64,000 nucleotides of DNA from Thiobacillus sp. (GTDB lineage Bacteria; Pseudomonadota; Gammaproteobacteria; Burkholderiales; Thiobacillaceae), in NCBI GenBank assembly GCA_019459055.1, contig JAIBEI010000009.1, forward strand, positions 1-64,000. Direction: 5' to 3'. This document shows positions 2,156-5,280 of this stretch, one piece after another. How positions within the stretch are numbered: position 1 is the stretch's first letter; each line of letters opens with the position of its first letter. The translations under genes and the position numbers were made by a program. The notes beneath the pieces were generated by a model, which was given only the letters and a program-made list of their open reading frames with translations, made no database searches and was not told where the DNA came from.

Positions 2156-2968
2156 ATGCCGACCATCCGACCCGCTGCCGTTGCCGGAATGTTCTATCCG
2201 GACGATCCGGCCGAACTCAGGCACACCGTAAACGCGCTGCTGGCGAATGCCACGGCCGGTTCTCCGTTGCGCCCGCCCAAGGCGCTGATCGTGCCGCACG
2301 CAGGCTATGTCTATTCCGGTGCGGTCGCGGCCAGCGCCTACGCGCAACTGGGGGCGCTGCGCGGCCGCATTCGCCGGGTGGTGCTGCTCGGCCCCGTGCA
2401 TCGCGTCTATGTCCGAGGCTTGGCACTGCCGGAGGCGGATCGCTTTGCCACCCCGCTCGGCGAGGTGCAGCTGGATCGCGAGGCCATGCAGCGGCTGAGT
2501 GAATTGCCCCAGGTGACCAGAAGCGCAGCGGCGCACCAGATGGAACACTCGCTGGAGGTGCAGCTGCCTTTCCTGCAGCAGGCGCTGGGCGATTTCCAGC
2601 TGCTGCCGCTGGCGGTGGGCGAGGCCACCGCGGCCGAGGTGGCCGCGGTGCTGGAAAAGGTCTGGGGCGGCGACGAGACGCTGATCGTGATCAGTTCCGA
2701 TCTGTCGCATTTCCTGCCCGATGCGGAGGCGCGCAGGGCGGACGGCCGCACCGTCGAGGCCATCCTGGCGCTGGATTCGCACCTTAGCCACGAGCAGGCC
2801 TGCGGCGCCACGCCGGTCAACGGACTGCTGCTGGCGGCGAAAAGGCATGGCCTGCGCGCGCTCAAGCTGGATGTATGCAATTCCAGCGACACCGCAGGCG
2901 ACCCTGGTCGGGTGGTCGGCTATGCCGCCTTCGCATTCGAACCGGAGGTCCAGCATGCGCACGCATGA
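2156..2968 (+). CDS. amrB: AmmeMemoRadiSam system protein B (Memo family)
   Basis: Memo-family protein of 270 residues, usual family length. Conserved points: PHAGY at 47-51, GPVH at 79-82, the HQMEHSLEVQLPFL helix region near 125, SSDLSHF near 182, and HEQACG near 220. The two early His and the late Cys correspond to the metal/active-site residues of the Memo/extradiol-dioxygenase-like fold. No signal peptide, so cytosolic. It is the first gene of a run in which each gene overlaps the next; the stop at 2966-2968 lies inside the AMMECR1 gene. The Memo-AMMECR1-radical SAM trio is a recurrent bacterial and archaeal set whose biochemical role is not settled. Confidence 0.95.
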   Translation: MPTIRPAAVAGMFYPDDPAELRHTVNALLANATAGSPLRPPKALIVPHAGYVYSGAVAASAYAQLGALRGRIRRVVLLGPVHRVYVRGLALPEADRFATPLGEVQLDREAMQRLSELPQVTRSAAAHQMEHSLEVQLPFLQQALGDFQLLPLAVGEATAAEVAAVLEKVWGGDETLIVISSDLSHFLPDAEARRADGRTVEAILALDSHLSHEQACGATPVNGLLLAAKRHGLRALKLDVCNSSDTAGDPGRVVGYAAFAFEPEVQHAHA

Positions 2969-3548
2969 GCAGAATCGAAGTGCCGGATCGGAGCAGCCGG
3001 ACGCCGAAAGAGGCTCGACCCTGCTGAAATTGGCGCGTTCGGAAATCGCCTCGAAACTGGGGCATGACGTGTCATCTCCTGCGCAGGTCGGCTGGCTTGC
3101 GGAACCAGGCGCCAGCTTCGTCACCCTGACCCGGCAGGGCGAGCTGCGCGGCTGCATCGGCACGCTGGAGGCGCACCGCCCGCTGGGACTGGACGTGCGG
3201 GAAAACGCGGTGGCGGCGGCGTTTCGCGATCCGCGCTTCATGCCGCTTACGCGCGTGGAATTCGACGAGATCCGGGTCGAGGTGTCGGTGCTGTCGCCGA
3301 GCGAAGTCCTGGTGGTGGTGAATGAAGAACATGCGCTGGCCACATTGCGGCCGAACGTCGACGGCGTGGTGTTCGAGTATCGCCATCACCGCAGCACCTT
3401 CCTGCCGCAGGTGTGGGAGCAGCTGCCCGATCCGGCCGAGTTCATGGCGCACCTGAAACGCAAGGCCGGGCTGCCGATGGATTTCTGGGCGGAAGAGGTG
3501 CGCCTGTCGCGCTACACCGTCCGCAAGTGGAAGGAGTCATCCGCATGA
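2955..3548 (+). CDS. amrA: AmmeMemoRadiSam system protein A (AMMECR1 domain)
   Basis: A 197-residue AMMECR1-domain protein. The start is the ATG at 2955, preceded by GGAGGT at 2944-2949, and it overlaps the Memo gene by 14 bases. The hallmark LRGCIGTLEAHRPL is at about residues 64-77, followed by PRFMPL and a C-terminal W..LP...EFM...K.K.GL segment as in the family. AMMECR1 is the gene named for a human contiguous deletion syndrome; the bacterial protein's activity is unknown. The stop overlaps the next start as ATGA, suggesting translational coupling and stoichiometric production with the radical SAM enzyme. Confidence 0.95.
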   Translation: MRTHEQNRSAGSEQPDAERGSTLLKLARSEIASKLGHDVSSPAQVGWLAEPGASFVTLTRQGELRGCIGTLEAHRPLGLDVRENAVAAAFRDPRFMPLTRVEFDEIRVEVSVLSPSEVLVVVNEEHALATLRPNVDGVVFEYRHHRSTFLPQVWEQLPDPAEFMAHLKRKAGLPMDFWAEEVRLSRYTVRKWKESSA

Positions 3549-4639
3549 GCATCCCCGAATCGCACACCCCGGCGCGCTGGTGGCACGTGCTTCCCGACGG
3601 CCGCATCGAGTGCGACCTGTGCCCGCGCTACTGCAAGCTGCACGAGGGCCAGCGCGGCCTGTGCTTCGTGCGCAAGATGGAAGGTGGCAAGATGGTGCTG
3701 ACCACCTACGGGCGCTCGTCCGGATTCTGCGTCGACCCCATCGAGAAGAAGCCGCTGAACCACTTTTATCCCGGAAGTTCGGTGTTTTCCTTCGGCACCG
3801 CCGGCTGCAACCTGGCCTGCAAGTTCTGCCAGAACTGGGACATCTCCAAGTCGCGCGAGACCGACACCATGGTCGACCAGGCGATGCCGGACGAGATCGC
3901 CGCTGCCGCCGAGAAGAGCGGCTGCAAGAGCGTGGCCTTCACCTACAACGACCCGGTGATCTTCGCCGAATACGCGATGGACGTGGCCGACGCCTGCCAC
4001 GCGCGTGGCCTCAAGACCGTGGCGGTCACCGCCGGCTACATCACCGAGGAACCGCGCCGAGCGTTCTTCGCCAAAATGGACGCCGCCAACGTCGACCTCA
4101 AGGCTTTCACCGATGACTTCTACGTCAAGCTGACCGGCGCGCACCTGCAGCCGGTGCTCGACACGCTGATGTATCTCAAGCGCGAGACCGACGTCTGGTT
4201 CGAGATCACCACGCTCCTGATTCCTGGCAACAACGATTCCGCCGCCGAGATCGAGGCGATGAGCCAGTGGATCCTGCGCGAGCTCGGCCCCGACGTGCCG
4301 CTGCACTTCTCCGCCTTCCACCCCGACTGGAAGATGGTGGACGTGCCGCCGACGCCGGCCTCCACCTTGACCCGCGCGCGCGACATCGCGCTGAAGGCCG
4401 GCCTGCACTACGTTTACACCGGCAACGTGCACGACACCACCGGCGGCACCACGTTCTGTCCGAAATGCCATGAAGCGCTGATCGTGCGCGACTGGTACCG
4501 CATCGACCAGTACAGCGTGACGCCCGACGGCCATTGCCCGCATTGCGGCAGCGCCATCGCCGGCCGCTTCGGCGCGTTCAGCCATCCCTTCGGCAACCGC
4601 CGCATCCCCATATCCATGCACCGGGAGCACCGCGCATGA
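3545..4639 (+). CDS. amrS: AmmeMemoRadiSam system radical SAM enzyme
   Basis: Radical SAM enzyme of 364 residues. The 4Fe-4S ligands for SAM cleavage are the CxxxCxxC at residues 88-95 (CNLACKFC). Two other Cys groups may bind metal: CDLCPRYC at residues 23-30 and, near the C-terminus, CPKCHE and CPHCG about 30 residues apart, resembling a rubredoxin-like zinc knuckle. It resembles pyruvate-formate-lyase-activating enzymes but is longer, and no glycyl-radical enzyme is nearby, so the target may be AMMECR1/Memo or an unknown substrate. It starts at ATG 3545 by ATGA overlap and overlaps the next gene the same way. Confidence 0.95.
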   Translation: MSIPESHTPARWWHVLPDGRIECDLCPRYCKLHEGQRGLCFVRKMEGGKMVLTTYGRSSGFCVDPIEKKPLNHFYPGSSVFSFGTAGCNLACKFCQNWDISKSRETDTMVDQAMPDEIAAAAEKSGCKSVAFTYNDPVIFAEYAMDVADACHARGLKTVAVTAGYITEEPRRAFFAKMDAANVDLKAFTDDFYVKLTGAHLQPVLDTLMYLKRETDVWFEITTLLIPGNNDSAAEIEAMSQWILRELGPDVPLHFSAFHPDWKMVDVPPTPASTLTRARDIALKAGLHYVYTGNVHDTTGGTTFCPKCHEALIVRDWYRIDQYSVTPDGHCPHCGSAIAGRFGAFSHPFGNRRIPISMHREHRA

Positions 4640-5280
4640 GCACCTCGATCCTGGCCCATATCCCCGCCGGCCACGTCACCATCGAAGGCATGCTGGAGGT
4701 TCCCGCGCGCGCCGTCGGGCTGGTGCTGTTCGCTCACGGCAGCGGCTCGTCGCGCCATTCGCCGCGTAACAACCATGTGGCCGGCGTGCTGCGGCAGGCT
4801 GGCGTCGGCACCCTGCTGATGGACCTGCTGACGCCGGAAGAGGATCGCGATTACGACCGCCGCTTCGACATCGCGCTCTTGACCCAGCGCCTGCTGGACG
4901 CCACGCGCTGGGCGGTGTCGCAGCCCGCCACCCGCGAGTTGCCGCTCGGATTTTTTGGCGCCAGCACCGGCGCCGCCGCCGCGATCGAAGCCGCCGCGAT
5001 GCTGGGCGCGGACGCCCGGGCCGTGGTCTCGCGCGGCGGCCGCCCCGACCTGGCCAGCCGTCAGGCGCTGACGACCGTGACCGCGCCGACCCTGCTGCTG
5101 GTCGGCGGTTTCGACGACGCCGTGATCGACCTCAACCAGCGGGCCTACGACCAGCTGCATTGCAAAAAAGAGCTGGTGATCGTTCCCGGCGCCACGCATC
5201 TGTTCGAGGAGCCCGGCACCCTGGATGAGGTGGCGCGCCAGGCCGCGGCCTGGTTCGCGAAGCACCTGCCCCCGCAGTAG
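4636..5280 (+). CDS. Alpha/beta hydrolase (dienelactone-hydrolase-like)
   Basis: A 214-residue single-domain alpha/beta hydrolase. Visible parts: oxyanion loop AHGSGSS at about residues 34-40, nucleophile elbow GASTG near 112-116, acidic residue in GGFDDAVID, and catalytic His in GATHLFEE. No signal peptide. The start ATG at 4636 overlaps the radical SAM stop (ATGA), so it belongs to the AmmeMemoRadiSam transcription unit. A related hydrolase next to a phosphoribosyltransferase domain is common in other genomes; here the nearest phosphoribosyltransferase gene is separate, at 9853-10479. Substrate unknown. Confidence 0.85.

Follow-up and report, generated by a model that had tools for sequence, protein, structure and literature searches.

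A hydrolase and phosphoribosyltransferase pair beside the AmmeMemoRadiSam genes in Thiobacillus and other Burkholderiales

Results

The four-gene operon and its convergent neighbour

A stretch of 64,000 nucleotides from Thiobacillus sp. (assembly GCA_019459055.1, contig JAIBEI010000009.1, positions 1 to 64,000), hereafter the window, contains an operon in which the genes for Memo, AMMECR1 and the radical S-adenosylmethionine (SAM) enzyme AmrS are followed by a gene for an alpha/beta hydrolase. The first three genes are the known AmmeMemoRadiSam system, here with its genes contiguous. The hydrolase, together with a phosphoribosyltransferase encoded further along on the opposite strand, is a recurrent neighbour of this trio in the order Burkholderiales. 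The genes are the following.

2156-2968, + strand: Memo (AmmeMemoRadiSam system protein B, amrB), 270 residues; TIGR04336, PF01875
2955-3548, + strand: AMMECR1 (AmmeMemoRadiSam system protein A, amrA), 197 residues; TIGR04335, PF01871
3545-4639, + strand: AmrS, radical SAM enzyme, 364 residues; TIGR04337
4636-5280, + strand: alpha/beta hydrolase of the phosphoribosyltransferase-linked 2o2g-like family, 214 residues; match to PDB 2o2g
9853-10479, - strand: phosphoribosyltransferase of the TT1426 type, convergent with the operon; PF00156, PDB 1wd5

The first-pass annotation of the window had described an operon with successive overlaps of 14 bases (Memo/AMMECR1), 4 bases (AMMECR1/AmrS) and 4 bases (AmrS/hydrolase), and the four collinear open reading frames on the + strand bear this out. 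Its identification of the trio also stands, as the three proteins pass the curated NCBIfam cut-offs, with 274.7 bits against 26 for TIGR04336, 197.4 against 99 for TIGR04335 and 644.5 against 220 for TIGR04337. Related database records carry the names amrB and amrS.

Occurrence of the hydrolase in the order

The search for the genes covered an even draw of 240 order genomes with a completeness of 90% or more, and 274 genomes of the class Gammaproteobacteria. In the order, AmrS was found in 92 genomes and the hydrolase in 46, with both in 36, the hydrolase alone in 10 and AmrS without the hydrolase in 56 (Fisher p 1.3e-9; this and the other Fisher tests treat genomes as independent and ignore kinship). 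In 30 of the 36 genomes with both, belonging to 11 families, the hydrolase lies directly behind AmrS on the same strand, 18-230 bases past the domain end. This close spacing extends to 29 genomes outside the genus, with identities of 46-70% and 11 families including that of the window. Of the 19 trio loci of the genus, 17 carry the hydrolase immediately behind AmrS, a count that includes G275 (L115) and G281 (L133), in which only a partial hydrolase match is present. This recurrence of the gene order in the genus and in the order indicates that the four-gene arrangement goes beyond chance. The hydrolase was not found in the trio genomes G285 (L121) and G286 (L130) and, as it is also only partly readable in G275 and G281, it seems to be dispensable within the genus.

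A survey of gene neighbourhoods had been called for to see whether the adjacency is private to this genome. The 30 order genomes rule this out, and an AmrS-linked hydrolase was also seen at 21 of the best 80 named loci. The scan of named genomes confirmed at least 588 hydrolase relatives, of which the best 80 were analysed; since three of the six query rows were trio-linked, the ranking sequence among them, the 21 of 80 is biased to trio-linked forms and does not represent a frequency. Many of these loci are short contigs on which neighbours may be missed.

The phosphoribosyltransferase as the steadiest partner of the hydrolase

The window transferase scores 78.4 bits against PF00156 (cut-off 26.3) and matches PDB 1wd5 with an E value of 1.7e-45. 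The residues D128, D129, G130, A132, T133 and G134 of its DDGxATG motif, which is the motif for phosphoribosyl pyrophosphate (PRPP), are conserved in 96 sequences. With this motif and a PF00156 score above the cut-off, the protein is a type I phosphoribosyltransferase.

That this gene joins the trio had also been anticipated, and the genomes agree. Among the 240 order genomes, the transferase is present in 74, including 45 of the 46 with the hydrolase (Fisher p 9e-28). It is encoded in each of the 30 genomes whose hydrolase is trio-linked, in 21 of them within 10 kilobases (kb) of AmrS. Taking all 47 order genomes with both AmrS and the transferase, the two lie at most 10 kb apart in 27, on opposite strands in 27/27; six of these 27 have no adjacent hydrolase and five of the six no hydrolase match at all. 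At the genus loci L120 and L128, the transferase and the hydrolase converge directly on each other; at L129 they are about 0.75 kb apart.

Outside this order, the hydrolase/transferase pair usually occurs without the trio. Of the 30 hydrolases read in the class, 21 have a transferase match no further than about 1.5 kb away, and in named genomes of many phyla the transferase stands within 5 kb at 40 of the best 80 hydrolase loci. On a Nostoc plasmid, the annotated gene order is PRPP synthetase, phosphoribosyltransferase, hydrolase; in Rhodococcus, the hydrolase lies inside a 450-residue protein followed by PRPP synthetase; and in Rhizobium it is part of an 882-residue 'erythromycin esterase' protein. 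The hydrolase is thus bound more tightly to the transferase than to AmrS. In a Geobacteraceae genome (L178:10805-11560), a different radical SAM protein, with 23% identity to AmrS, is encoded directly after the pair.

Conserved residues of the four proteins

The radical SAM core of AmrS, CxxxCxxC, comprises C88, C92 and C95 and fits the superfamily motif. Two further sets of cysteines are found, at the N-terminus (C23, C26, C30 and C40) and at the C-terminus (C305, C308, C331 and C334). All sets are at least 97% conserved in 160 sequences and are kept in a Nitrospirota relative with 37% identity, which passes the TIGR04337 cut-off. AmrS was rejected as an activase of glycyl-radical enzymes, the best NCBIfam model (TIGR02493) giving 66.9 bits against a cut-off of 231.75. 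Several class genomes, among them G001:C36, G126:C2, G124:C4 and G197:C90, contain a further AmrS-like match of about 230-315 bits beside the main one; these second matches possibly form a paralogous family.

The probable metal ligands of Memo, H48, H82 and C216, are at least 97% conserved in 119 sequences and align with H49, H81 and C244 of human MEMO1 (PDB 7kq8), the correspondence of C216 with C244 being drawn from a sub-threshold second alignment piece and from conservation. In crystal structures, these MEMO1 residues bind iron or copper, and the iron site is reported to be similar to that of LigB-type extradiol dioxygenases, as described in the part of the report drawn on here (PMC11081632). 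Window Memo itself does not fit the two-His-one-Glu set of LigB-type enzymes, as Cys occupies the third place. In AMMECR1, C67 of the LRGCIG motif is conserved, and the protein matches PDB 1wsc with an E value of 1.6e-22.

Memo and AMMECR1 form one uninterrupted frame in 17 of the 19 genus trio loci (which include L115-L131 and L133). Only the window and G279, a genus relative whose hydrolase is 97% identical to that of the window, have the split with the 14-base overlap, at the same position, and both carry extra bases at the junction in the DNA alignment. The overlap is therefore probably a recent un-fusing. A single frame was also seen in 4 of the 28 order loci read and in the class genomes G133 and G246, in which the two matches share open frames of 457 and 459 residues; none was seen in 31 other class loci. 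That the two are fused in several lineages is the strongest sign in these data of Memo and AMMECR1 acting as one unit, and it suggests a physical association.

The hydrolase matches PDB 2o2g ('Dienelactone hydrolase') with an E value of 2.1e-63 and is barely above the cut-off of Pfam Hydrolase_4 (29.9 bits against 27). Its residues S110, D160 and H188, taken as the putative catalytic triad, are invariant in 37 sequences and at least 97% conserved in 155. Full-length similarity, the Ser-Asp-His set and a transferase in the genome place it in the 2o2g-like, transferase-linked family. Classical dienelactone hydrolases have the Pfam DLH domain and a Cys nucleophile; the window protein, for which Pfam gives Hydrolase_4 and Abhydrolase_11 only and which has Ser in GASTG, is not one of them. 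It was likewise rejected as an N-acyl-homoserine lactone lactonase of the quorum-quenching UilS type (23.1 bits against a cut-off of 400).

Arrangement of the trio and a second gene order

Flanking genes were read at the 41 best-scoring of 141 class trio loci, at 27 of the 92 order genomes with AmrS (besides those of the genus and G311) and at 30 class hydrolase loci, from the 33 genomes with a match. In the order, Memo and AMMECR1 lie upstream of AmrS on the same strand at 27/27 loci, whereas in the class AmrS is divergent from Memo-AMMECR1 at 31/31 of the best-scoring loci with Memo nearby. At the other 10 of these 41, neither Memo nor AMMECR1 stands near AmrS; both are found elsewhere in the genome, side by side, in 10/10. 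This rules out that AmrS acts without them in these ten genomes. Further genes that recur beside the trio in the class, which we take from their sequences to be MoaB-like, flagellar and chemotaxis genes, were regarded as local synteny.

A second order, Memo, AMMECR1, transferase and hydrolase with AmrS divergent, is present in the Muproteobacteria-like class genome G082 (L132) and on a Muproteobacteria contig (L174). In G082, AmrS is followed by genes for RtcB, an NrdJ-type reductase and PhoH, with PRPP synthetase encoded nearby. On a Nitrospirota contig (L180), an AmrS-family gene passing TIGR04337 is divergent to the transferase/hydrolase pair; no Memo was seen on this contig, which is only 4.3 kb long. 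The RNA ligase RtcB is also encoded near amrB and amrS on a Segatella plasmid (L036) and divergently to the hydrolase in Halobaculum (L362). At L044, L047, L185, L186, L207 and L132, in several lineages, ribonucleotide reductase genes with 31-66% similarity to the NrdJ-type gene of L132 are found no more than about 5 kb from the hydrolase.

A hydrolase tree of 169 rows was built by a quick method, leaving out the short L115 and L133 and identical sequences; 73 of its 166 inner branches have a support below 80. One group of 89 rows (support 86), in which this order is well represented, comprises all 63 trio-collinear hydrolases plus 26 without the link; the tree draws the Muproteobacteria pair outside this group. 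Mapped onto the tree, the trio-collinear label requires 11 changes, 3 of them forced by well-supported branches. Constraining the 65 trio-linked rows to group apart from the remaining rows gave p 7.8e-5 in the approximately unbiased (AU) test, so the trio-linked hydrolases do not form a clade of their own; the test says no more than that. A separate joining in Muproteobacteria is suggested by the gene order and is not established by the tree.

Flanks of the operon

Upstream of Memo, visual inspection of 19 aligned regions, from 18 genus loci and G311, points to the following feature.

2099-2131, + strand: possible promoter region, TTGAAT...TTTCCCCACATTTACTAAG

A similar box, TTGAA...TTCCCCCACAT.TACTAAG-like, stands at 2099-2131 and at the same place upstream of Memo in about 10 of the 18 genus loci. 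No match to the sigma-70 consensus was found across 1840-5450 of the window, and terminator-like sites in the scanned operon region are not in excess (2, against a mean of 2.1 in shuffled sequences). A palindrome seen by eye upstream of the window Memo is not conserved across the genus in the upstream alignment.

Between the hydrolase and the transferase, the window contains an ATP-binding cassette (ABC) exporter locus at about 5369-9690, with an ATPase, an FtsX-type permease and an HlyD-type protein. Upstream of the operon, a methyltransferase (1220-1834, - strand) resembles the C-terminal part of bacterial Hen1; it scores 209 bits, under the cut-off of 340, and covers positions 265-460 of the 462 in the profile.

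Discussion

A possible joint pathway

We tentatively propose that the trio and the transferase/hydrolase pair serve one pathway with a PRPP-linked substrate, which may be nucleobase-like or another ring. The transferase would add or remove ribose-5-phosphate, AmrS with the Memo-AMMECR1 unit would carry out a radical or iron-dependent step on the ring or a side group, and the serine hydrolase would afterwards open or trim the resulting lactone, ester or amide. This clean-up role is proposed by analogy with extradiol ring-cleavage pathways, in which a hydrolase follows the Memo-fold enzyme. As many genomes omit the hydrolase or encode it elsewhere, it would be an accessory step rather than a fixed subunit.

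Several observations argue for a joint pathway: the placement of the hydrolase directly after AmrS in 30 of 36 genomes, together with the transferase in 45 of 46; the transferase near AmrS on the opposite strand even where no hydrolase is adjacent (six genomes); the second arrangement in G082 and L174 along with the divergent AmrS-family gene on L180; and the conservation of the Memo iron ligands, the hydrolase Ser-Asp-His and the transferase DDGxATG, with Memo and AMMECR1 fused. The link to PRPP is suggested by the Nostoc plasmid and Rhodococcus, in which the pair stands with PRPP synthetase. It is also conceivable, and in our view unlikely, that the trio, transferase and hydrolase are five steps of an undescribed pathway dependent on PRPP, by which an unusual ring compound is modified, repaired or salvaged; this compound could be a base that is damaged or modified, or a cofactor resembling a base. 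Memo would then be the iron-dependent half, opening or oxidising the ring, and AmrS the radical half. If so, the human homologues MEMO1 and AMMECR1 would descend from a nucleotide- or cofactor-repair enzyme.

A number of results weigh against a joint pathway. The hydrolase is missing from 56 of the 92 order genomes and 120 of the 141 class genomes with AmrS. In the class, where 33 genomes have the hydrolase and 21 have both, the co-occurrence is not significant (Fisher p 0.14), and among the matches listed only 2 of these 21, the window and G082, have the two genes less than 3 kb apart; in 3 others they are far apart on one contig and in 16 they are on different contigs of drafts. The hydrolase is therefore not tied to the trio throughout the class, and the four-gene form belongs chiefly to this order. 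Among the best 80 named loci, AmrS (at least 45% identity, within 6 kb) was found at 0 of the 45 hydrolase loci outside Pseudomonadota, two of which are unassigned and several short. As most of the trio-linked hydrolases cluster in a single region of the tree, the 30 order cases are not independent. Joining the two Muproteobacteria rows to the 89-row group was not rejected by the AU test (p 0.735) and scores better; a separate Muproteobacteria joining is thus not upheld by the tree, which slightly lowers the probability of a joint pathway, including one acting on an unusual ring compound, and raises that of simple inheritance. Finally, human MEMO1 showed no dioxygenase activity on the substrates its authors tried, according to the part of their report drawn on here (PMC11081632).

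Alternative explanations

A close rival is shared regulation only, by which the pair would come from stress loci and be needed together with the trio, under redox or iron stress or at low oxygen, without any common metabolite. We regard this as possible, if somewhat doubtful. The hydrolase loci near universal stress proteins, Hsp20, OsmC, ribonucleotide reductase and RtcB fit such a role. In Mycobacterium, Rv0571c is presumably a fused hydrolase/transferase homologue. The parts of two reports drawn on here describe Rv0571c as having DosR-binding motifs and as a carbon-starvation protein (PMC2275270, PMC12090744). However, regulation alone does not readily explain why the transferase is convergent to AmrS even in the six genomes without an adjacent hydrolase, or why G082 and L174 have the pair behind AMMECR1 on the Memo strand. 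These same two observations count against the view that the hydrolase was inserted behind AmrS once, in an ancestor within the order, and then kept by descent with no joint function, as does the close spacing maintained in the 29 non-genus genomes at 46-70% identity. Such inheritance, which we consider rather unlikely, would nevertheless account for the placement of 63/63 trio-collinear hydrolases in one 89-row group rich in this order, and it agrees with the genus genomes in which the hydrolase was not found (G285 and G286) or is incomplete (G275 and G281).

It appears more improbable that AmrS and Memo-AMMECR1 act on a macromolecule, RNA or peptide, from which the hydrolase would edit or remove a group. 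RtcB downstream of AmrS in G082, near amrB and amrS on the Segatella plasmid and near hydrolases is in line with an RNA substrate, and a study in eLife (2020), in the part consulted, places relatives of the radical SAM domains of Memo-AMMECR1 systems in systems that process peptides. But RtcB lies within 9.5 kb of AmrS at only 1 of the 41 class loci, that of G082 itself, and at none of the 23 order loci lacking an adjacent hydrolase or the 20 loci of the genus plus G311.

The first-pass annotation had favoured one complex of all four proteins. This does not agree with the 56 of 92 order and 120 of 141 class trio genomes that lack the hydrolase, nor with the 10 order genomes that have it without AmrS. 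The steadiest partner of the hydrolase is the transferase (45/46), and only Memo and AMMECR1, by their fusion, give evidence of a physical unit.

Novelty and significance

The literature searched contained no account of the reaction of the trio, of the four-gene form or of the transferase link; the most relevant paper, from 2019, lay outside that search. This paper, by Burroughs et al., reportedly describes in its abstract new Memo contexts that point to nucleotide-base and isoprenoid modification, and part of the context reported here may thus already be in print. The suggestion that the locus is an undescribed biochemical system holds for the reaction and perhaps for the extension, but not for the trio, which has already been described; the four-gene form is best understood as a lineage-specific variant within a known system.

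MEMO1 has been studied in cancer and iron homeostasis. The lineage-wide link to a transferase-partnered hydrolase narrows the search, as it predicts a PRPP- or ribotide-linked metabolite, and it points to the non-pathogenic Thiobacillus and Nitrosomonas as organisms in which to study the trio.

Comparison with known systems

Compared with the AmmeMemoRadiSam system, the window adds the hydrolase and the convergent phosphoribosyltransferase, and its trio is collinear, in contrast to the divergent order of the class loci. AmrS shares CxxxCxxC with pyruvate formate-lyase activating enzyme and the other glycyl-radical activases, and its best PDB match is 3c8f; unlike these activases, it has the extra N- and C-terminal four-Cys sets and falls far under the family cut-offs. 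Window Memo has the two-His-one-Cys metal site in common with human MEMO1 (PDB 7kq8, 3bcz). In LigB-type extradiol dioxygenases, the third iron ligand is Glu, where window Memo has Cys (ligand identities from the part of PMC11081632 drawn on here).

The closest relatives of the hydrolase are the 2o2g-like members of the 'dienelactone hydrolase family' paired with phosphoribosyltransferases in Nostoc, Rhodococcus and others, with 53-70% identity to 36 aligned members. Members elsewhere have the same conserved residues and the same partner gene as the window hydrolase. In contrast to those pairs, the window hydrolase follows AmrS, and its transferase is convergent, 4.6 kb away behind the ABC exporter locus.

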